From Sedimentisphaerales bacterium (GTDB taxonomy: Bacteria > Planctomycetota > Phycisphaerae > Sedimentisphaerales > Anaerohalosphaeraceae), in assembly GCA_016926155.1 (NCBI GenBank), contig JAFGPC010000135.1, forward strand, positions 1 to 33,979: DNA of 33,979 bases, in the 5' to 3' direction. Under the pieces are notes generated by a model. The model did not search any database, was not told the DNA's origin, and saw only the letters and a program-made list of their open reading frames with translations. Positions within the stretch are counted from its first letter, which is position 1. Every line of letters begins with the position of its first letter. Below, piece after piece: positions 4,885-33,504 of the stretch. The position numbers and the translations under genes were made by a program.

Positions 4885-5287
4885 TTTTTCCTCTCCTTAC
4901 ATATTTGAAGTGATGTATGGTTATTCAAATTCGGTTTGAGCGGAAATAAAATGGAATGAGAACTTCTGGAAGCATATCCCCTTAGAATGCAACTGATCCG
5001 AATCAGCACGACATCCCATCTCAATTGAGGATTTACATTTATCACACCCTTACCTCCAAAAAGCCTTTTTGCTTTATATAAAAGCTTTCATGGCTCCATT
5101 ATCAAACATAATACCTCTCCCGGCATAGAATCGTCAAGAATTTTCCCCATTATTCCAGGGCAGGATCGGAGAGTTGTGAGATGAGAAAAGTCTTGCTGTT
5201 CAAGTGGGATTTTGATACACAAACGACAAATGATCAAGAAATATGACAGATGTGAAACGCGGGTCCGACCAAAGAAAGGAATAGAAT
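4885..5287. other. Divergent intergenic region with AT-rich inverted repeats
   Basis: This gap lies between a minus-strand exported protein and a plus-strand transsulfuration enzyme. It contains two adjacent small inverted repeats: AAAAAG-C-CTTTTT (5058-5070) and GCTTT-ATATA-AAAGC (5071-5085). A weak minus-strand promoter guess is TTGATA (5100-5105) with TATATA (5075-5080), but the 19-base spacer is long. No convincing gene is visible. Confidence 0.4.
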
Positions 5288-6499
5288 ATGGCAAAAACGT
5301 CCCCGAAACGGCGTAAAACCGACAAACCAAAGGCCTCCATGGCGACCCGGGCCATCCATGCCGGAGAAGACCGCCGCAAGTTTGCCGATTCGCTGACCAC
5401 GCCGATTATCCAGACCTCGACGTTTACCTTCAAGAACAGCAAGGAAATCGAGGACTATACCCGATCGGGCAAGGGACATTATGAATACGGCCGCTATGGC
5501 AACCCGACCGCTACTATCGCCGAGCAGCGTCTGGCCGACTTGGAAGGGGCCGAAGATTGCGTGGTCTTCTCATCCGGAATGAGTGCTATTACGACAACGA
5601 TCTTGTCCCTGGTGCAGAGCGGCGACCATATTGTGATTACCGACGACAGCTATAAAAAGACCCTGGAGTTCTGCCGATCGTACCTGAAACAGTTTTCGAT
5701 CGCATGCACGATTGTCGGTTTCGGTGACTATGATGCCTTGGAAAAGGCGATCCGACCCAACACGCGGTTTATCTTTTCCGAATCGCCGACCAATCCTTAC
5801 CTAAATATCTTCGACCTGTTCAAAATCAGCAAGATCGCCGAGCGGCACGGAGTACTGACGTTGATCGACAGCACCTTTGCGACGCCGTACAACCAGCGGC
5901 CGCTGGAGTTCGGGATGGACCTTGTTTTACAAAGCTGCACAAAATATCTGGCTGGACATAATGACATTCTTGCCGGTGCGGTACTGGGGCGATTTGACCT
6001 GGTCGACAAGATCCGCAACCTGCACAAATCCATGGGCGGCACGATCGATCCACACTGCTGCTATCTACTGTTGCGGGGCTTGAAGACTTTCGCTATCCGG
6101 GTGGCTCAACAGAACGAGACGGCCCTGGCGGTAGCACGGCACCTGGAGGGACATCCGAAGATCAAGCAGGTGTATTATCCATTCCTGGAGAGCCATCCGC
6201 ATTACAAGGTTGCGACCGAGCAGATGGCCGGCGGCGGGGGCGTGGTGACCTTTACAACCAAGGGTACACTCACGGGGGCCAAGCGGTTTCTCGATGCGCT
6301 TAAGCTGTGCTACATCGGGCCGAGCCTGGGAGGTGTTGAGACATTGATTACGCACCCGGCGCTGGTCAGCTATTATAACTACTCGCGTAAGGAACGCTAT
6401 GATTTAGGAATCACCGATACATTGTTCCGCCTGGCCGTCGGACTGGAGGATGTGGAGGATATCATCGCCGACCTGGAGCGGGGTTTGAAGCAGTTATAA
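5288..6499 (+). CDS. Cystathionine gamma-synthase-like PLP enzyme (transsulfuration family)
   Basis: 403 residues, normal length for the Cys/Met metabolism PLP-dependent family. Visible family motifs are YGRYGNPT (residues 68-75, phosphate and active-site contacts), SSGMSA, LIDSTFATP (Asp194, pyridine nitrogen ligand) and SCTKYLAGHND with Lys219 as the PLP Schiff-base lysine. From memory the C-terminal half resembles plant cystathionine gamma-synthase more than enterobacterial MetB (HNDILAG, RGLKT, GPSLGGVETL). The likely reaction joins an activated homoserine with cysteine to give cystathionine for methionine synthesis; direct sulfhydrylation or a lyase role cannot be excluded from sequence. 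The first 17 residues are Lys/Arg-rich and look like an extra N-terminal tail. Ribosome site AAAGGA precedes the ATG. Confidence 0.9.
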   Translation: MAKTSPKRRKTDKPKASMATRAIHAGEDRRKFADSLTTPIIQTSTFTFKNSKEIEDYTRSGKGHYEYGRYGNPTATIAEQRLADLEGAEDCVVFSSGMSAITTTILSLVQSGDHIVITDDSYKKTLEFCRSYLKQFSIACTIVGFGDYDALEKAIRPNTRFIFSESPTNPYLNIFDLFKISKIAERHGVLTLIDSTFATPYNQRPLEFGMDLVLQSCTKYLAGHNDILAGAVLGRFDLVDKIRNLHKSMGGTIDPHCCYLLLRGLKTFAIRVAQQNETALAVARHLEGHPKIKQVYYPFLESHPHYKVATEQMAGGGGVVTFTTKGTLTGAKRFLDALKLCYIGPSLGGVETLITHPALVSYYNYSRKERYDLGITDTLFRLAVGLEDVEDIIADLERGLKQL

Positions 6500-6745
6500 C
6501 AGGGAATCAATGCTTGACTTTTTTCTCACGGTTTGGCTGATTGGCACATCGGATCCTGGATAATACCGGCGCTATTCTATGTGAAGCATAATGGTTTTAA
6601 ATCACCTTATGAATCAGAATCTTTCCGGATACAAGGAGTAAAGGAATTGATCTGGCCTCGAATTGTCGGTTTGTTGACAGTACACTAGAAAGTAATACAT
6701 GTACGAAAGCGATTTTTACATTGAGTGTATAGGAACAAAGACGTT
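6500..6745. promoter_or_regulatory. Intergenic region with possible promoter for the TIM-barrel gene
   Basis: A perfect TTGACA is at 6674-6679, followed 16 bases later by TACATG, a poor -10. The palindrome TACATGTA overlaps that -10 position. I see no terminator for the upstream gene and no additional gene. Confidence 0.3.
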
Positions 6746-7783
6746 ATGGAACAGCATATAAATCGTCGAGGTTTTTTGAGCGGCTCAGTGGTGGCCGGAG
6801 CATCCATTGCAGGATTTCTGAGCCAGGAGGAAAAGATCCTGCTGGCGGCTCAGGCGAATCCGGAAAAGACAACAAGCCAAAAACCTCTTGCGGCGGAACT
6901 GCCGATGGCCGAGATCGGGGGGATTCTATTCAGCCGACTGATCGCCGGAGGCAATCTGCTGAACGGCTGGTGCCATCAGCGGGATCTGTTGTATGTCTCG
7001 GAACTGGCGCAGGCTTATCTCACCAGAGAAAAGAAATACGAGACGCTGGCTCTCATGGAGCGGATGGGCATCAACGCCATCGGGATCGACATGATCCAAC
7101 TCGAGACCGTCAAGCGGTACAATATCGAATATGCCGGCATGTTGCGAACGGTGGTCAGTGTGCGCCAGGAGTGGAGCAAGTGGAATGAGCCGGATCTGGC
7201 GGACCTGAAAACAGAGATCGACAAGGTAGCCGATCAGGGGCCGGATATCCTGTATGTCCATGGAGGCTATTGTGATCGGCTGGTCGAGCGGGGCAAGCCC
7301 GAGTATATAGAACTGATCGGCGAGACCATCGAGTATATTCGCAAGAAGGGATTCGCTGCAGGGTTGGGCAGTCATTCGCTGCATGTACCGATGGAATGCG
7401 ATAAGATGCGAATCGAGCCGGACTTCTATTTCAAGACGATGCATCATGACAGGTACTGGTCGGCGACACCCAAGGAACATCGCAAACCCTTCTGTGTGGA
7501 CGGCCCCAGTCATCTGGATCATAACGAGTTTCACGACAATATTTTCTGTCTCGATGCCGATACGACGGCAGCTTACATGCGAAAGAAAAAACAACCTTGG
7601 ATTGGTTTTAAAGTACTTGCCGCCGGGGCGATTCATCCATACTCTGCATTTCAATTTGCTTTCGAGAATGGATGCGATTTTATCTGTACAGGCATGTTTG
7701 ACTTCCATGTCGAACAGAATGTCGGAATTGCCTGCAAGGTTATTCAATCAACTCAGGATCGTATGCGACCCTGGTGCGCATAG
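6746..7783 (+). CDS. Tat-exported TIM-barrel-type protein of unknown function
   Basis: 345 residues from the ATG at 6746. An in-frame GTG lies 21 bases upstream, but the ATG puts the twin-arginine motif NRRGFLSGS at residues 6-14 and follows AGGAAC, so it is preferred. After the Tat signal (to about residue 38) comes a single soluble domain with alternating strands and helices typical of an aldolase-type barrel: GINAIGIDMIQ, ILYVHGGYCD, FAAGLGSHSLHVP, WIGFKVLAAGAIHP and FENGCDFICTGMFDFH. His and Asp residues near strand ends could form a metal or substrate site. The C-terminus (RMRPWCA) matches a style common in planctomycete Tat proteins, from memory. It is likely exported folded, perhaps with a cofactor. 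The substrate is not readable. Confidence 0.75.
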   Translation: MEQHINRRGFLSGSVVAGASIAGFLSQEEKILLAAQANPEKTTSQKPLAAELPMAEIGGILFSRLIAGGNLLNGWCHQRDLLYVSELAQAYLTREKKYETLALMERMGINAIGIDMIQLETVKRYNIEYAGMLRTVVSVRQEWSKWNEPDLADLKTEIDKVADQGPDILYVHGGYCDRLVERGKPEYIELIGETIEYIRKKGFAAGLGSHSLHVPMECDKMRIEPDFYFKTMHHDRYWSATPKEHRKPFCVDGPSHLDHNEFHDNIFCLDADTTAAYMRKKKQPWIGFKVLAAGAIHPYSAFQFAFENGCDFICTGMFDFHVEQNVGIACKVIQSTQDRMRPWCA

Positions 7784-25182: not shown

Positions 25183-25650
25183 ATGGCCGAACGGACACTC
25201 ATTATTATCAAGCCGGATGCAATTCAGCGGGGCCTGGCCGGCGAGATCATTTCACGCTTCGAACAAAAGGGATTCAAACTCGTGGCGAGCAAGTTCATGA
25301 AGATCAGCAAGACACTGGCCCAGAAGCATTATGCCGTGCACAAGGACAAACCGTTCTTTGCCCGCGTGGTGGCCTATCTGTCCTCGTCACCGTCGCTGGT
25401 CATGGTCTGGCAGGCCGATCATATCATCAAGATGAGCCGCCGGATGATGGGCGAGACCTTCGGCACCGAGGCGTCGCCGGGGACGATCCGGGGTGATTTC
25501 GGCTGTTCGCAGGGATTCAACCTGATTCACGGCTCCGATTCTCCCGCCTCGGCCGATCAGGAGATCCCGCTGTACTTCAAGAACGATGAAATCTGCGACT
25601 ATCCCCTGGCCAACGAGCACTGGCTCTACGGAGACAAGGAAGAGGGCTAA
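25183..25650 (+). CDS. ndk: Nucleoside diphosphate kinase
   Basis: 155 residues, typical length. It begins MAERTLIIIKPDA, the conserved first strand, and carries SPGTIRGDFG and NLIHGSDS, where His116 is the phosphorylated residue, followed by SADQEIPLYF. It transfers phosphate among nucleoside di- and triphosphates in the cytoplasm. Upstream in-frame sequence has no family similarity, and AAGGGAG before the ATG at 25183 fixes the start. The gene lies just behind a terminator with almost no room for its own promoter, so expression probably comes from readthrough or from a promoter inside the preceding gene. Confidence 0.97.
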   Translation: MAERTLIIIKPDAIQRGLAGEIISRFEQKGFKLVASKFMKISKTLAQKHYAVHKDKPFFARVVAYLSSSPSLVMVWQADHIIKMSRRMMGETFGTEASPGTIRGDFGCSQGFNLIHGSDSPASADQEIPLYFKNDEICDYPLANEHWLYGDKEEG

Positions 25651-25676
25651 AAAATAGTGAGAAGAAAGCTGGGATA

Positions 25677-25685
25677 TGGTATCAT
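25677..25685 (+). promoter_or_regulatory. Possible extended -10 element for the interrupted membrane-protein gene
   Basis: TGG-TATCAT (25677-25685) is an extended -10-like word about 60 bases before the start codon of the next gene; no -35 match is visible. Confidence 0.3.
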
Positions 25686-25743
25686 ATGCTTGCCTTTCTT
25701 TTCCTGTTAAATGGTTTAGGATTCTTGCTAAGGAGGTCGGATT

Positions 25744-26052
25744 ATGAATGATCCATCGTGGTGGATATAGGGTGCTAAAATTTTTGGAACACTCACCTTT
25801 TTCGGAGCGATCGTCTATTATTTTCGCATAAAGAAAAAAATTCCCCTCTACGTTTATGCTCTTTCGCTCGTCGCTTTTATCTGTGGAATGGCCATCGGAT
25901 TAACGATTCATTTGAAATTCATCCATATGCTGGCTCTGGGATTACTCTGTTCTGTTGCACCGCCTGTCTTGTGGTTTTTATGCGGCGGGCCCTTTTTCTC
26001 TCAGAAAAACACACTTAAAAATAAAGATAGGGAGAAATGTGATTCTGCATGA
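25744..26052 (+). pseudogene. Small membrane-protein gene interrupted by an in-frame TAG at codon 9
   Basis: A textbook ribosome site (AGGAGG, seven-base spacer) precedes ATG at 25744. The frame reads MNDPSWWI, then TAG (25768-25770), then continues open for 93 more codons to TGA at 26050-26052. The post-TAG sequence is coherent: three hydrophobic segments (IFGTLTFFGAIVYYF, YALSLVAFICGMAIGLTI and MLALGLLCSVAPPVLWFL), basic residues between them and a charged tail (KNTLKNKDREK). A single G-to-A change from TGG would restore Trp-Trp-Ile-Trp. The simplest reading is a recent nonsense mutation or a sequencing error; suppression or readthrough at TAG is possible. Function unknown. It converges with the minus-strand gene ending at 26101. 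Confidence 0.65.
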
Positions 26053-26100
26053 TTTTAGTAAATCATTGAATCTATCCTACTTAACCGATTTTGTTTATAT

Positions 26101-26496
26101 CTATTTTTGATATCTGGTAAGTTCAAGTTTTAAGTTGGTGTAGATTTCATCAATCAAGTCAGAAAGAAGATCCCTTTCACGGCCCCAATAGAGATGGTAT
26201 GGGCTGGCAGTAAGATCGCTGACCTTGGATCGTGTGATTTCAGGATTCCAATCCTCCAGGAACTGATCCCGGATCGATTTGTATTTTGGCTTGTCGATAA
26301 TGGAACGGATAAATTCCTGTGATGACACTTTTTCTTGAAATTGCTCGAAATTGGTCTCCTCGTTGAAATAACCGTCGGCTTCCGACCAGGCAAAGACAAT
26401 CGCAGGGCGGGCCGAGACATGATGCATCCTGTACCATTGAATCAAGTTTAAAACGATAAGCACAACGACCACCAGGCAATACAATATCTTCTTCAT
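26101..26496 (-). CDS. Small membrane-anchored protein of unknown function
   Basis: 131 residues. A basic start (MKK) and a hydrophobic stretch (4-22, ILYCLVVVVLIVLNLIQW) form a signal anchor; the rest (about 105 residues) is hydrophilic and rich in acidic and aromatic residues (FAWSEADGYFNEETNF, SPYHLYWGRERDLL), and is presumably outside the cytoplasm. AGGA lies eight bases before the ATG. A possible extended -10 (TGA-TACTAT, minus strand, at 26567-26562) lies about 60 bases upstream. No family recognised. Its 3' end faces the interrupted membrane-protein gene. Confidence 0.65.
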   Translation of the reverse strand: MKKILYCLVVVVLIVLNLIQWYRMHHVSARPAIVFAWSEADGYFNEETNFEQFQEKVSSQEFIRSIIDKPKYKSIRDQFLEDWNPEITRSKVSDLTASPYHLYWGRERDLLSDLIDEIYTNLKLELTRYQK

Positions 26497-26659
26497 ATTC
26501 TTATTCCTATAAAGATTTCCTTACAGGGCAAACGATCATTTGGATGAGTGTTCCATCTTCTATAGTATCAGATGCCAAACTTATCGTATCACCCTTATTT
26601 TAAAAAAATTCAGGCCAATGAAACGGGACCCACGTTGTCGGTTTCACGGGGAAATTCGC

Positions 26660-26687
26660 TTGACTTGTTCATGGGAAGCGGGATAAT
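26660..26687 (+). promoter_or_regulatory. Promoter for the duplicated-module dockerin gene
   Basis: TTGACT (26660-26665), 16-base spacer, GATAAT (26682-26687). Predicted start near 26694 gives a leader of about 220 bases. Confidence 0.6.
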
Positions 26688-26787
26688 GCAAAGGCAGGTA
26701 TTGAAGACACCGGCGGGAGGGGTGATAGATGGAAAAAAGGTTGAGGATCACGGAAGGGGCGAAAAACCACAAGGTTGGTACCCCACC

Positions 26788-26806
26788 AATCGAAAAGTTT
26801 TCGATT
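26788..26806. promoter_or_regulatory. Perfect 19-base inverted repeat AATCGAAAA-G-TTTTCGATT in the leader
   Basis: Two nine-base arms around a single G, about 94 bases after the predicted transcription start and 110 bases before the ATG. As RNA it could form an 8-bp hairpin with a three-base loop. It shares the AATCGAAA arm with the dyad at 19128-19145, in the opposite orientation. Confidence 0.5.
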
Positions 26807-26916
26807 GAAGCTTTAAGTAACTCCCTGAACACTTCTGAAATCTCGAGTTTCTCAAAATATCACATAATAAATGTTTGTCATCGGGCAAATTCGCACGATG
26901 GAAGGAGGCGGAAAGT

Positions 26917-28733: not shown

Positions 28734-30599
28734 ATGATTGCCAATCGCAAGGTCCTGATTTTTTCTGTATTTTGTATTGGAACATTCTCTGTGTTGGCGA
28801 AGGAGGCGTCGTGGGAAACCTTGTTTGATGGCAAAAGCCTAGCCGGCTGGGAAGTTCGTGGGGGTGTTGCTCAATACCGGGTAGAAGATGGCTGCATCGT
28901 GGGTAAAACGGTGGAAGGAAGCCCCAATACGTTTCTATGCACGATGAAGGAATACGGCGACTTTATCCTGGAATTCGATGTCCGGTGTGATCCAAAGCTC
29001 AATTCCGGTGTGCAGATTCGCAGTCATATTTATTATCACGATACGGTCTTTCCGATATGGCGGGATGGACAGCGGATCGATAACAAGCATAAGGCCGGAG
29101 ATGTATACGGGTATCAGGTTGAGATTGCCTCGGCCGAGACGGGAACGAGCGGGGGCGTATGGGACGAGGCCCGCAAGGGGATGTGGCTGGATGCGACAAG
29201 TCAGGATCCGGTTGCGAGCAAAGCGTTCAACAATGGTGAATGGAATCATTATCGTATCGAATGCATCGGACCGCGAATTCGCACATTTATTAACGATATT
29301 CCTTGTGCCGACTTCGTGGATACCTCTGATGTATCGGGTTTCATTGGTCTGCAGGTGCATAGCGTTTCCCGGGGACTGACGGCAGAAGTACGATGGAAAA
29401 ACCTCCGAATCAAGGACCTGGGTCGACATGTGTGGAAGCCGCTTTTTGACGGACAGACCCTGGACGGTTGGCATACTCTGCCCGGTGGAAGCTGGCAGGT
29501 GAAAAATGGCATTCTGATCGGCTCCTCTCTGGCAACAGAAACAAAGCATGGCCTTCTTGTCAGCGATGAAGTTTTTGGGGATTTTGTGGCTTCTGTCCGA
29601 TTCAAGGCCGTCAAGGGAAACAGCGGTTTGTATTTTCGGGTGGAAGAATCCGGAGATGCGGTCGGAGTGCACGGGTTTCAGGCTGAAATTGATGGCGCTA
29701 ATGATGTGGGCGGGCTTTACGAAACAGCAGGGCGGGCATGGGTTATTCAACCCAAACCGGAAGAAGTGGCCACCTGGTTCAAACCCGGTGATTGGAACAC
29801 GATGACGGTCTATGCTCGCGGGCAGGATATTGTCGTGCATGTCAATGGCTATAAAACAGCCGAGTTGAAGAACGATCCGGGCCGTCTCGAAGGCCGTCTG
29901 GCCTTACAGTTACACGGTAACCAGGATATGGAAGTGCAATTCAGGGATGTTTCGATCCTGGTGAGAGGAAAAGTATCCGAGCCATTCAATGGAAAGGATC
30001 TGGACAATTGGATCGCCAAACCGGGCAGCGGCAAGGAAAATCTCTGGGTTGTCGGTATCCCGGAGATGAACAAAGATAATCCAAAACAGCTCATTGCCAA
30101 AAACGGTGTCGGCGCCATGATCAACCTGACCAAAGAGCATGGGCAGAGCCAGGATTTCTACAGCAGGCAGACCTTTGGGAGTGGACGTTTCGAGGTCGAA
30201 GTGATGGTGCCGCAGGGCAGTAACAGCGGTGTCTATCTGATGGGGGAATATGAGGTGCAGGTTCTTGACAGTTTCGGGCGTGAAAGGATGGGTTCCGGTG
30301 ATATGGGCGCAATTTATGGCGCTGCGCCGCCGCCGTTCAATGCGAATACGCCCCCCGGCACATGGCAAAAATACGTGATAGACTGGCAGACGCCTGTATT
30401 CAATGATAAGCCGGAGAAGATCAAAAATGCACGTTTTATCCGGGTGCAACTGAATGGGCAGATGCTTCACGAAAGTCTGGTAATGCCCAATCAGACACCT
30501 GGCGGCGTGGATGGGAGGGAAAAGCCGGTCGGTCCATTGATGTTCCAGGGCAATCATGGCTCGGTGGCCTATCGGAACATTATTGTCACCGAGTGGTAA
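28734..30599 (+). CDS. Exported protein with three DUF1080 (3-keto-disaccharide hydrolase-like) domains
   Basis: 621 residues. Signal peptide 1-22 (ends SVLA). Three consecutive DUF1080-like beta-sandwiches begin with the family signature: WETLFDGKSLAGWEV (27-41), WKPLFDGQTLDGWHT (about 236-250) and SEPFNGKDLDNWIA (about 417-430). Internal landmarks include NSGVQIRSH, NSGLYFR and NSGVYLMGEYEVQV, the conserved NSG turn of the family. DUF1080 is linked to hydrolysis of 3-keto-glycosides and to carbohydrate binding; having three domains in one chain is unusual. AAGGAGAG precedes the ATG. The sulfatase follows after an intercistronic hairpin, and a LacI regulator after that. Confidence 0.9.
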   Translation: MIANRKVLIFSVFCIGTFSVLAKEASWETLFDGKSLAGWEVRGGVAQYRVEDGCIVGKTVEGSPNTFLCTMKEYGDFILEFDVRCDPKLNSGVQIRSHIYYHDTVFPIWRDGQRIDNKHKAGDVYGYQVEIASAETGTSGGVWDEARKGMWLDATSQDPVASKAFNNGEWNHYRIECIGPRIRTFINDIPCADFVDTSDVSGFIGLQVHSVSRGLTAEVRWKNLRIKDLGRHVWKPLFDGQTLDGWHTLPGGSWQVKNGILIGSSLATETKHGLLVSDEVFGDFVASVRFKAVKGNSGLYFRVEESGDAVGVHGFQAEIDGANDVGGLYETAGRAWVIQPKPEEVATWFKPGDWNTMTVYARGQDIVVHVNGYKTAELKNDPGRLEGRLALQLHGNQDMEVQFRDVSILVRGKVSEPFNGKDLDNWIAKPGSGKENLWVVGIPEMNKDNPKQLIAKNGVGAMINLTKEHGQSQDFYSRQTFGSGRFEVEVMVPQGSNSGVYLMGEYEVQVLDSFGRERMGSGDMGAIYGAAPPPFNANTPPGTWQKYVIDWQTPVFNDKPEKIKNARFIRVQLNGQMLHESLVMPNQTPGGVDGREKPVGPLMFQGNHGSVAYRNIIVTEW

Positions 30600-30688: not shown

Positions 30689-32227
30689 ATGAGTGAGTGG
30701 ACGCGGCGCGAATTTTTGCGTTATTCGATAGGATCCGGGATTTCGGTTGGAGCAATTGGGCTTTTTACATATGATTTGAGGGCGTCGGATTATACAAAGG
30801 GCAAGAAACCGAATGTCCTTCTGATCATGACCGATACACAGCGGCTGGATGATATGGGCGCCTATGGCAATCCCGTCATCAGGACGCCACATCTGGATTC
30901 ACTGGCAAACAGCGGTACCATGTTCCGTAACTGTCATACGCAATATCCGGCCTGTATGCCCGCGCGTGCCACAATTTTCACCGGCCGCTATCCTATGGCC
31001 CATGGAGTCTGGGCCAACGGTGTGCAACTGCCGGAAAAGGAAATTACCCTGGCGCATCTTTTTGCGGCCAACGGTTATCGAACCGGAGGAGCAGGTAAAT
31101 TTCATTTTCAGCCGCACTTTCCGTATCGCAAGAACGAACTGCCGAGTATGGAGACGCATCCTGAGCCATACTACGGATTCCAGGAATTTTACCTCGGTGA
31201 GGACGGGCGAAGCGGAGAACACCATTTGTGGATCAAGAAAAACCATCCGGAATACTATGACAAGCCCGATGATCAGATTCCCATCGAACTGCACAACAGC
31301 TATTGGACGGCATCACATACGATCGATTTTATCCGGCGATGCAATAGTAAGGGAGAACCATTCTTTGCCTTCTGCAGTTTCGTCGATCCACACCAGAGTT
31401 ATAATCCGCCTCCGCCCTACAGCATGATATATAAGCCCCAGGAAATGCCCGATCCGGTTCGCCGGGATGGTGAGCTGGAAAAAAGCCGTTTCAAATCCAC
31501 CGCTGAAAACGGCAACATGATGAATTATACCAAACGGCTGAAGGAAAATCGGGCACAGCACTATGGCGAGATGACATTCATCGACGATTCGGTCGGCCGA
31601 GTGCTTAAGACTCTGGATGAACTGAAAATCCGGGATAATACGCTGATTGTGTTTGTTGCTGATCATGGCGATATGTTGGGTGATCACTGGCTCTGGTGGA
31701 AAGGACCGTGGCATTATGCGGGCTGTACAAATGTGCCGCTGTTTTTTAACTGGACCGGCATGGTTAAATCAGGCAAGATAGTTAAAGGCATGGTCCAGCA
31801 GACCGATGTGCTTCCCACGATCTGTGAGTTAACGAGCCTTCCTATTCCCCCCGGCGTACAGGGCAAAAGCCTCAAGGATGTGCTTACTCAGGATACGGAT
31901 GAAACACCGTATGATTATGTCTATATCGAATCTGTCAGTTCCGGAGCTTATGCACCGGACTATCTGGACGGCAGCGGTCGCCGCCGACAAACCGAGCCCG
32001 GTCATACGGTCGATACCGTTACTATCCGCAGCCGGAAATGGAGATTCACTGTCTTTACCGGCGCCGATGACGGTGAGTTATACGATCTGGAAAAGGATCC
32101 GGATGAGTTTAATAATGTTTTTCACGATCCGGATTTCGCGTCGATCCGTAGCGAGTTGATGACCATTTTATTGGATCGTTTGTCTCGAACCCGCGATCCA
32201 CTCCCGGCCAAAACCAGACCCTATTAA
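30689..32227 (+). CDS. Tat-exported sulfatase (Cys-type formylglycine)
   Basis: 512 residues. Tat signal at the start (WTRREFLRYS, residues 4-13). The sulfatase core begins KPNVLLIMTDTQRLDD (metal ligand Asp49; the usual second Asp is Thr50 here). The formylglycine site is CMPAR with Cys89 and Arg93, inside YPACMPARATIFTGR. VADHGDMLG holds Asp325 and His326 near the calcium site, and the C-terminal part has the YDLEKDPDEFNN segment typical of the family. The cysteine must be matured to formylglycine; the protein probably removes sulfate esters from a polysaccharide in the periplasm. No maturase gene is in the window. GAGGGG precedes the ATG. Confidence 0.93.
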   Translation: MSEWTRREFLRYSIGSGISVGAIGLFTYDLRASDYTKGKKPNVLLIMTDTQRLDDMGAYGNPVIRTPHLDSLANSGTMFRNCHTQYPACMPARATIFTGRYPMAHGVWANGVQLPEKEITLAHLFAANGYRTGGAGKFHFQPHFPYRKNELPSMETHPEPYYGFQEFYLGEDGRSGEHHLWIKKNHPEYYDKPDDQIPIELHNSYWTASHTIDFIRRCNSKGEPFFAFCSFVDPHQSYNPPPPYSMIYKPQEMPDPVRRDGELEKSRFKSTAENGNMMNYTKRLKENRAQHYGEMTFIDDSVGRVLKTLDELKIRDNTLIVFVADHGDMLGDHWLWWKGPWHYAGCTNVPLFFNWTGMVKSGKIVKGMVQQTDVLPTICELTSLPIPPGVQGKSLKDVLTQDTDETPYDYVYIESVSSGAYAPDYLDGSGRRRQTEPGHTVDTVTIRSRKWRFTVFTGADDGELYDLEKDPDEFNNVFHDPDFASIRSELMTILLDRLSRTRDPLPAKTRPY

Positions 32228-32379: not shown

Positions 32380-32454
32380 TGGGTGTGGAATCCGGGGTAT
32401 GCCAGGTTCAGACGGGCGATGGAACGGTGATGTCGAAAGGTGGTTGGAGCGGAT

Positions 32455-33504
32455 ATGGCCAATATCAAGGACGTAGCAAGGATGGCGGGGGTTTCCATCG
32501 CGACGGTCTCCCATGTCACGCGTGGAACCAAATATGTCAGCGAATCGTTGCGGAACCGGGTGAATGAGGCGATCCAGAGGCTCGGCTATGAGGTGAACCC
32601 TGTCGCCAGCGGGCTCAAAAGCCGTTCGACCCGCGTGATCGGCATCGTCTTGCCTAATATCAACAGTGTTTTCTTCCCACCGATTCTCAAGGGTATCGAA
32701 GACTATGCCTCAGCGCAAGGGTATCGGCTGACCTTCTGCAATACCGATTTCGACGTGGAAAAGGAACAGGAAACCATCCGTATGCTGCAGGGAAGCTGGG
32801 TTGATGGAATCATTCTGGATTCGGTCGCCGAGGTGGCCGACACCGACTATGTCCGTTTTCTTTCCAATCTGTCAAGCGGAGAAAAGCCCATCCCGGTGGT
32901 CTCGCTGGAACGCAGAGTTGATTCAGGCGTGATTCTTTCCGTCCGGATCAATAATTATGAGGGTGCCTGCCTGGCTGTGCGGCATCTGGCAGAATGCGGC
33001 TGTTGCAAAATCGTTCATATCGCCGGGCCGGACTTCTGTTCGATGGCCGATGACCGACTGCGGGGTTGCCGAGACCAGCTCAAACAATGCGGGTTAGGAC
33101 TGGACAAAAGCCAGGTGGTTAAGGGTGATTTTTCGCCCGAGCAGGGGTATACGGCGATGTTGTGCCTGTTGGAACAAAATCCCGATCTCGATGGCGTGCT
33201 CTCGGCCAACGACCAGATGGCAATCGGGGCAATACGGGCCCTGCACGAGAGCGGACGCCGTGTGCCTGAGGATGTGAAAATCGTCGGCTTTGACAATATC
33301 TTCGTCTCCAGCCTGATCAGTCCTTCCCTGACGACGATCAATGTGCCGCGCTATCAGATGGGCCATGCCGCCGCCGAGCTGCTCATCCGCCGGTTGACCG
33401 ATCCCGATGCTGAACTGGAAGATGTCATGCTGCCTATCCATCTGGTCGTCCGTCGGTCTACCGATCCATCCGCCCAAACCACCTGGGACCTCAGTAGTTG
33501 GTAG
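32455..33504 (+). CDS. LacI-family transcriptional regulator
   Basis: 349 residues from the ATG at 32455 (GGAG six bases upstream), giving the classic start MANIKDVARMAGVSIATVSHV, the LacI helix-turn-helix; an upstream GTG adds five residues. The hinge (about 45-60) and a periplasmic-binding-protein-like sensor domain follow (STRVIGIVLPNINSVFFPPI, VDGIILDSV, HLAECGCCKIVHIAGP, LSANDQMAIGAIRALHESG). The ligand is unknown, likely a sugar. It has its own promoter and sits directly after the DUF1080-sulfatase pair, so it is the likely local regulator; GAAACGTTTC at 28549-28558 is a candidate site. Confidence 0.93.
   Translation: MANIKDVARMAGVSIATVSHVTRGTKYVSESLRNRVNEAIQRLGYEVNPVASGLKSRSTRVIGIVLPNINSVFFPPILKGIEDYASAQGYRLTFCNTDFDVEKEQETIRMLQGSWVDGIILDSVAEVADTDYVRFLSNLSSGEKPIPVVSLERRVDSGVILSVRINNYEGACLAVRHLAECGCCKIVHIAGPDFCSMADDRLRGCRDQLKQCGLGLDKSQVVKGDFSPEQGYTAMLCLLEQNPDLDGVLSANDQMAIGAIRALHESGRRVPEDVKIVGFDNIFVSSLISPSLTTINVPRYQMGHAAAELLIRRLTDPDAELEDVMLPIHLVVRRSTDPSAQTTWDLSSW

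Follow-up and report, generated by a model that had tools for sequence, protein, structure and literature searches.

An in-frame TAG at the ninth codon of a rare, probable membrane-protein gene in a Sedimentisphaerales bacterium

In-frame stop codons occur in bacterial genes, where, as reported by Belinky et al. in 2021 (PMC7918605), they are mostly short-lived and over-represented in the mobilome category, and where the genes that carry them have dN/dS ratios that are below 1 though fairly high. Many pseudogenes with internal stops are, according to Cooley and Wright in 2024 (PMC11017572), assembly errors that depend on the assembler, the sequencing platform and the coverage. Work on leader reinitiation by Korolev et al. 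(PMC4833913) describes a peak in leader-gene distance at 10-11 bp in Actinobacteria, which is also seen in Planctomycetes, and orphan immunity of Rhs toxins is the subject of the study by Hagan et al. (PMC10539506).

Here we analyse a gene in a window of 33,979 nucleotides (the whole stretch of DNA that was studied) from a Sedimentisphaerales bacterium. The initial annotation had described this gene as a perfect ribosome site, an ATG, eight codons, a TAG and 93 open codons, a layout with which both the sequence and its translation agree (Table 1), and had offered a fresh nonsense mutation, a sequencing error and genuine amber readthrough as the choices. A nonsense change is supported by two uninterrupted relatives, whereas amber recoding is made unlikely by the data given below, and we consider it likely that one nonsense change has interrupted a rare and probably dispensable membrane-protein gene.

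Table 1. Coordinates of the interrupted gene and of the features around it
Feature	Position	Strand	Remark
Shine-Dalgarno-like AGGAGG	25731..25736	+	7 bases 5' of the ATG
Start codon and first eight codons (MNDPSWWI)	25744..25767	+	Homologous to the N-termini of both uninterrupted relatives
In-frame TAG	25768..25770	+	Leu and Trp at the same column in the two relatives
93 open codons and TGA	25771..26052	+	Remainder of a small, hydrophobic membrane protein, probably of three helices, with a tail that is charged
Convergent 131-aa ORF, function unassigned	26101..26496	-	Hydrophobic N-terminus (by eye)
AT-rich stretch holding the disrupted gene and the convergent ORF	25650..26850		0.38-0.45 GC in 300-base windows

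The interrupted frame and its relatives

The frame ends with a TGA at 26050-26052 and, besides the TAG, whose middle base is position 25769, carries no second disabling change. Taken alone, the pairing of AGGAGG and ATG could be due to chance: the window has four cases of an AGGAGG with an ATG 4-9 bases on, where 2.16 are expected, and 15 of 100 shuffles reach four. The ATG at 25744 is supported as the genuine ancestral start because, of the other three such matches, two (8564 and 12756) coincide with the start codon of a listed ORF and one (26917) with an in-frame ATG internal to an ORF of the list.

When the 93 residues downstream of the TAG were searched against 198 genomes, 71 of these showed a match with E no higher than 1, and only two, G004 and G011, hold clear relatives besides the window's own frame; the remaining matches, all at E 0.005 or above, were set aside as due to chance. 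The frames in G004 (37% identity over 79 query residues, E 4.6e-15) and in G011 (32% over 89 query residues, E 4.6e-6) are both uninterrupted. The relatives' loci, L072 from an Anaerohalosphaeraceae bacterium and L073 from a Phycisphaerae bacterium, must hold the same two genes, and the identity of the two relatives to the window frame is 31-37%.

We built a profile from the two uninterrupted relatives only, leaving the window frame out, and masked the TAG as X. The window frame scores 74.9 bits with this profile, in an alignment that starts at residue 3, against a best of 11.4 bits among 2000 shuffled frames (1985 of them given a score), and this difference rules out a chance ORF. The score falls to 64.3 bits without the first nine positions of the frame, the eight codons 5' of the TAG contributing about 10 bits, and 2 of 2000 random N-termini matched the real profile score. 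Because the profile scores both sides of the TAG, the eight codons before it and the 93 after it belong to a single ancestral protein. An origin of the short segment as an eight-codon leader peptide is ruled out, its residues being homologous to the relatives' N-termini.

Two features that mark a pseudogene of this kind are seen here, namely homology that continues on either side of the stop and a sense codon at the stop column in relatives, the latter in only the two clear relatives found. As for the change itself, the proposal that a single base had turned TGG into TAG stands in so far as the two uninterrupted relatives support a single nonsense change, but an ancestral TGG is not established: since the column is Leu in one relative and Trp in the other, TGG is only one possibility for the ancestral codon. 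The three membrane helices described earlier are plausible, in that the L073 relative has three hydrophobic stretches, although those of the window copy are not cleanly separated and the AlphaFold model of the window protein is poor (mean pLDDT 58.6).

Family distribution and genomic setting

The family of this small membrane protein is rare. With a threshold of E 0.01, a three-sequence profile (A1) made of both relatives and the window frame detected it in 3 of the taxonomic family's 39 genomes, the window's own included; the 38 others all lie outside the window's genus. At the stricter threshold of E 0.001, the same profile matched 4 of 161 genomes of the order and 4 of a class-wide sample of 397, and the fourth match in both sets, in G069, was discounted as chance (21.3 bits, inside a 581-codon frame). 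Within the window's own genome the gene is single-copy. Viral contigs (0 of 176 stretches), plasmids queried with the L073 relative and the 100 stretches of a first contig scan with the window protein alone yielded no relative, and a DNA search of 59 genomes gave only short matches besides the window itself, the best of them covering 54 bases (E 0.003). This is a protein found in three genomes only and matching no curated family over cut-off. No Pfam or NCBIfam model passes for the family's proteins (best E 0.077 and 0.019), the NCBIfam value (E 0.019) coming from a weak similarity between the window frame and MnhB/MrpB-type antiporter subunits; PHROGs gave no match; and PADLOC gave one marginal match, between a '4TM' effector and the window frame only (E 0.005).

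The upstream neighbour is ndk, an ORF with an NDK domain that ends at 25650. The convergent ORF on the other side has no Pfam match, and among 158 further genomes of the order it gave nothing better than weak matches (best E 6.8e-4, two stops inside). Measured in 300-base windows, GC is 0.51-0.61 upstream of 25650 and mostly 0.48-0.54 downstream to 28349, and the disrupted gene has a GC of 0.41 against 0.50 for the window as a whole. This AT-richness is not a family trait, because the L072 gene has a GC of 0.51 in a locus of 0.46; the L073 gene has 0.44 in a locus of 0.51. Promoter-like sites in 25560-26200 (two, against 1.3 in shuffles) and terminator-like sites there (one, inside the gene, against 0.4) were given no weight. 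Farther along the window lie a 3-keto-disaccharide hydrolase-type protein at 28734-30599 (three matched stretches) and a sulfatase at 30689-32227, perhaps a polysaccharide-use cluster, with a LacI-type regulator nearby at 32440-33504.

The genomic contexts of the window copy, L072 and L073 differ. In L072, the gene follows a 250-aa ORF with a lipoprotein-like N-terminus (by eye; no Pfam match), and a convergent gene that by eye resembles DNA-3-methyladenine glycosylase lies 3' of it. In L073, the relative is flanked by two Rhs-like ORFs, at distances of 96 bases from the one before it and 27 from the one after it. Because this is the usual place of an immunity gene, the window gene may conceivably, to judge from this one locus, be a stranded immunity-type gene. 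The position of the L073 relative recalls the orphan immunity genes of Rhs polymorphic toxins, of which Serratia Rhs1 is an example (PMC10539506). Unlike that system, the window's contig has no RHS repeat match (five contigs of its genome have RHS repeats over cut-off), and no Rhs-like ORF was seen by eye on the 7-kb L072 contig. The Rhs matches in L073 also score below the Pfam cut-offs (19.6 against 22 bits, 18.2 against 27.9 and 19.3 against 50), the C-terminal part of the L073 Rhs-like ORF has no match in the window's genome, and no named immunity family was recognised among Pfam and NCBIfam models over cut-off or in PHROGs. As an observation on the Phycisphaerae bacterium itself, positions 3687-6785 of L073 hold tandem Rhs-like ORFs with differing C-terminal tails, each followed by a gene for a small hydrophobic protein (4971-5300 and 6360-6785), an arrangement suggestive of arrayed toxin-tip and immunity cassettes.

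Decoding of UAG in this genome

Release factor 1 is encoded by a complete 362-aa ORF that scores 467.8 bits against a curated cut-off of 423.25, and the single TAA reported inside the match is, by its position, the end of that ORF. The genome has 48 tRNA matches over cut-off, 150 of 198 first-look candidates having been scored and 48 weaker ones left unscored. ARAGORN, applied to 30 loci and 18 stretches, recognised a tRNA in 47 of the 48, with 40 anticodon types among them; the called set is incomplete, as expected types such as Lys-TTT and Gln-TTG are missing from it. The UAG-reading anticodon CTA was seen in none of the 48 matches, in a genome that is 95.89% complete and with 48 of the 198 candidates unscored, and the suppressor tRNA that readthrough might call for was accordingly not among them. 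The one match that ARAGORN did not accept, a 71-base tRNA-like element (L070 101-171; G000:C73:11224-11294) that scores 40.3 bits to the tRNA family, has no CTA in it and is probably a degenerate tRNA; it shares its contig with a long RHS-repeat frame. With the pylS model, whose cut-off is 178.15 bits, only two matches appeared, at 21.7 and 20.5 bits, and since 13 of 14 control genomes also match this model, only one of them over the cut-off, the matches are probably other synthetases; pyrrolysine was rejected on this score.

In the window, TAG serves as an ordinary terminator. Among 21 hand-picked ORFs, some of them perhaps not genes, 7 end with TAG, 12 with TAA and 2 with TGA. Six of the seven TAG-ended ORFs were compared with Pfam, two of them without a match, and the seventh is the convergent ORF at 26101-26496. 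Among those with a match, the LacI-type regulator is complete, with its ligand-binding domain extending to residue 341 of 354, and the domains of an OmpA protein and a TPR protein reach residue 261 of 278 and about residue 618 of 642, respectively.

Recoding of UAG at this TAG, the amber readthrough of the initial annotation, is unlikely because RF1 is whole, no UAG-reading tRNA was found among the 48 matches, pylS is below its cut-off and the neighbours use TAG as a terminator. A general reassignment of TAG was rejected on the presence of RF1, the usual role of TAG as a terminator and the lack of CTA among the 48 tRNA matches. A recoding RNA structure was rejected as well, the 147-base RNA from the start codon to 25890 folding less well than an average shuffle (z 0.87; equalled or bettered by 164 of 200 shuffles) and no Rfam family matching in 25600-26200. 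UAG recoding in Planctomycetes does not appear in the titles and abstract openings of the papers listed by a literature search on that phylum, UAG and stop codons.

Origin of the stop and comparison with known systems

Taken together, our data suggest that the window carries a member of a rare accessory gene family encoding a small membrane protein, probably with three helices, and that one base change in this copy would have replaced a sense codon with TAG at codon 9. Since RF1 is present, ribosomes should halt after eight residues. With ribosomes stopped in this way, and with no ATG, GTG or TTG in frame after the TAG before codon 49, which lies beyond the first hydrophobic stretch, the gene would be effectively off, and we infer that its function has been lost. 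The AT-rich stretch in which it lies, its patchy distribution and the lack of a second copy in the genome suggest that the gene is probably dispensable and drifting.

The age of the change is harder to read from the frame. The initial annotation took the intact downstream frame as an argument that the event is recent or the stop tolerated; the frame is indeed open, but this is weak evidence, because in a simulation of neutral change with an assumed transition bias, substitutions alone leave the frame open in 57% of runs at 10% divergence (24% at 30%). Of the 837 possible single substitutions in the 279 downstream bases, 39 (4.7%) create a stop, as do 1.1% of the transitions. When 0.1 indels per substitution are assumed, the frame is still open in 19% of runs at 5% divergence and in 3.6% at 10%. 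We consider the nonsense change probably recent, though not necessarily very recent.

A different explanation would place the TAG in the assembly or the base calls, or in a minority strain variant, the gene being whole in the living population. The assembly consists of 222 contigs, with 95.89% completeness and 1.08% contamination, the frame has no other defect, and assembly errors account for many internal-stop pseudogenes in the report of Cooley and Wright (PMC11017572). However, several neighbouring ORFs match near-complete domains without interruption and the assembly does not look error-rich here, and we hold an error to be less likely than a real nonsense change, and unlikely overall.

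It is also conceivable that the cell tolerates the TAG, either by low-level readthrough with near-cognate tRNAs, which would give a little full-length protein, or by using the stop as a brake on expression. The fully open downstream frame would agree with such tolerance, as would the bacterial in-frame-stop genes with dN/dS below 1 (PMC7918605), but the whole RF1, the lack of a UAG-reading tRNA among the matches, the low pylS scores and an RNA fold that is unremarkable all speak against it. Moreover, neither relative has a stop there, so that the sharing of a stop between species, on which that report relied, is absent here, and we judge tolerance improbable. More doubtful again is a stop kept as an expression brake in an otherwise normal code, with trace protein made by UAG readthrough or by initiation at an ATT. 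Readthrough, if real, would make this a case, in a planctomycete, of a stop that serves to hold expression down.

An in-frame ATT does lie four codons 3' of the TAG, ahead of most of the first hydrophobic stretch, and ATT start codons are very rare. Restart at such a codon after an eight-codon mini-ORF that acts as a leader, yielding a protein that lacks only its first residues, would be in keeping with the distance peak that extends to Planctomycetes (PMC4833913), but the usual start codons are absent from this part of the frame, and the homology of the eight codons to the N-termini of the relatives shows that they had no origin as a leader; we hold this to be the least probable of the readings.

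We therefore return to a single nonsense change. As a plain nonsense allele, the locus would matter little in itself; it would show the turnover of accessory genes and would caution against taking lone in-frame stops in assembled genomes for recoding. It resembles UAG recoding by pyrrolysine or a suppressor tRNA in having an in-frame TAG followed by coding sequence, and differs from it in the decoding apparatus, with RF1 present, pylS below cut-off, no CTA among the 48 tRNA matches and TAG an ordinary stop. With the single-nonsense pseudogenes and in-frame-stop alleles reported in PMC7918605 and PMC11017572, it shares the single stop, the uninterrupted homologues and the accessory nature of the gene, although, unlike the alleles of PMC7918605, the stop in the window is known from one genome only. 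The phenomenon is an ordinary one, and as such the gene fits what Belinky et al. and Cooley and Wright describe.
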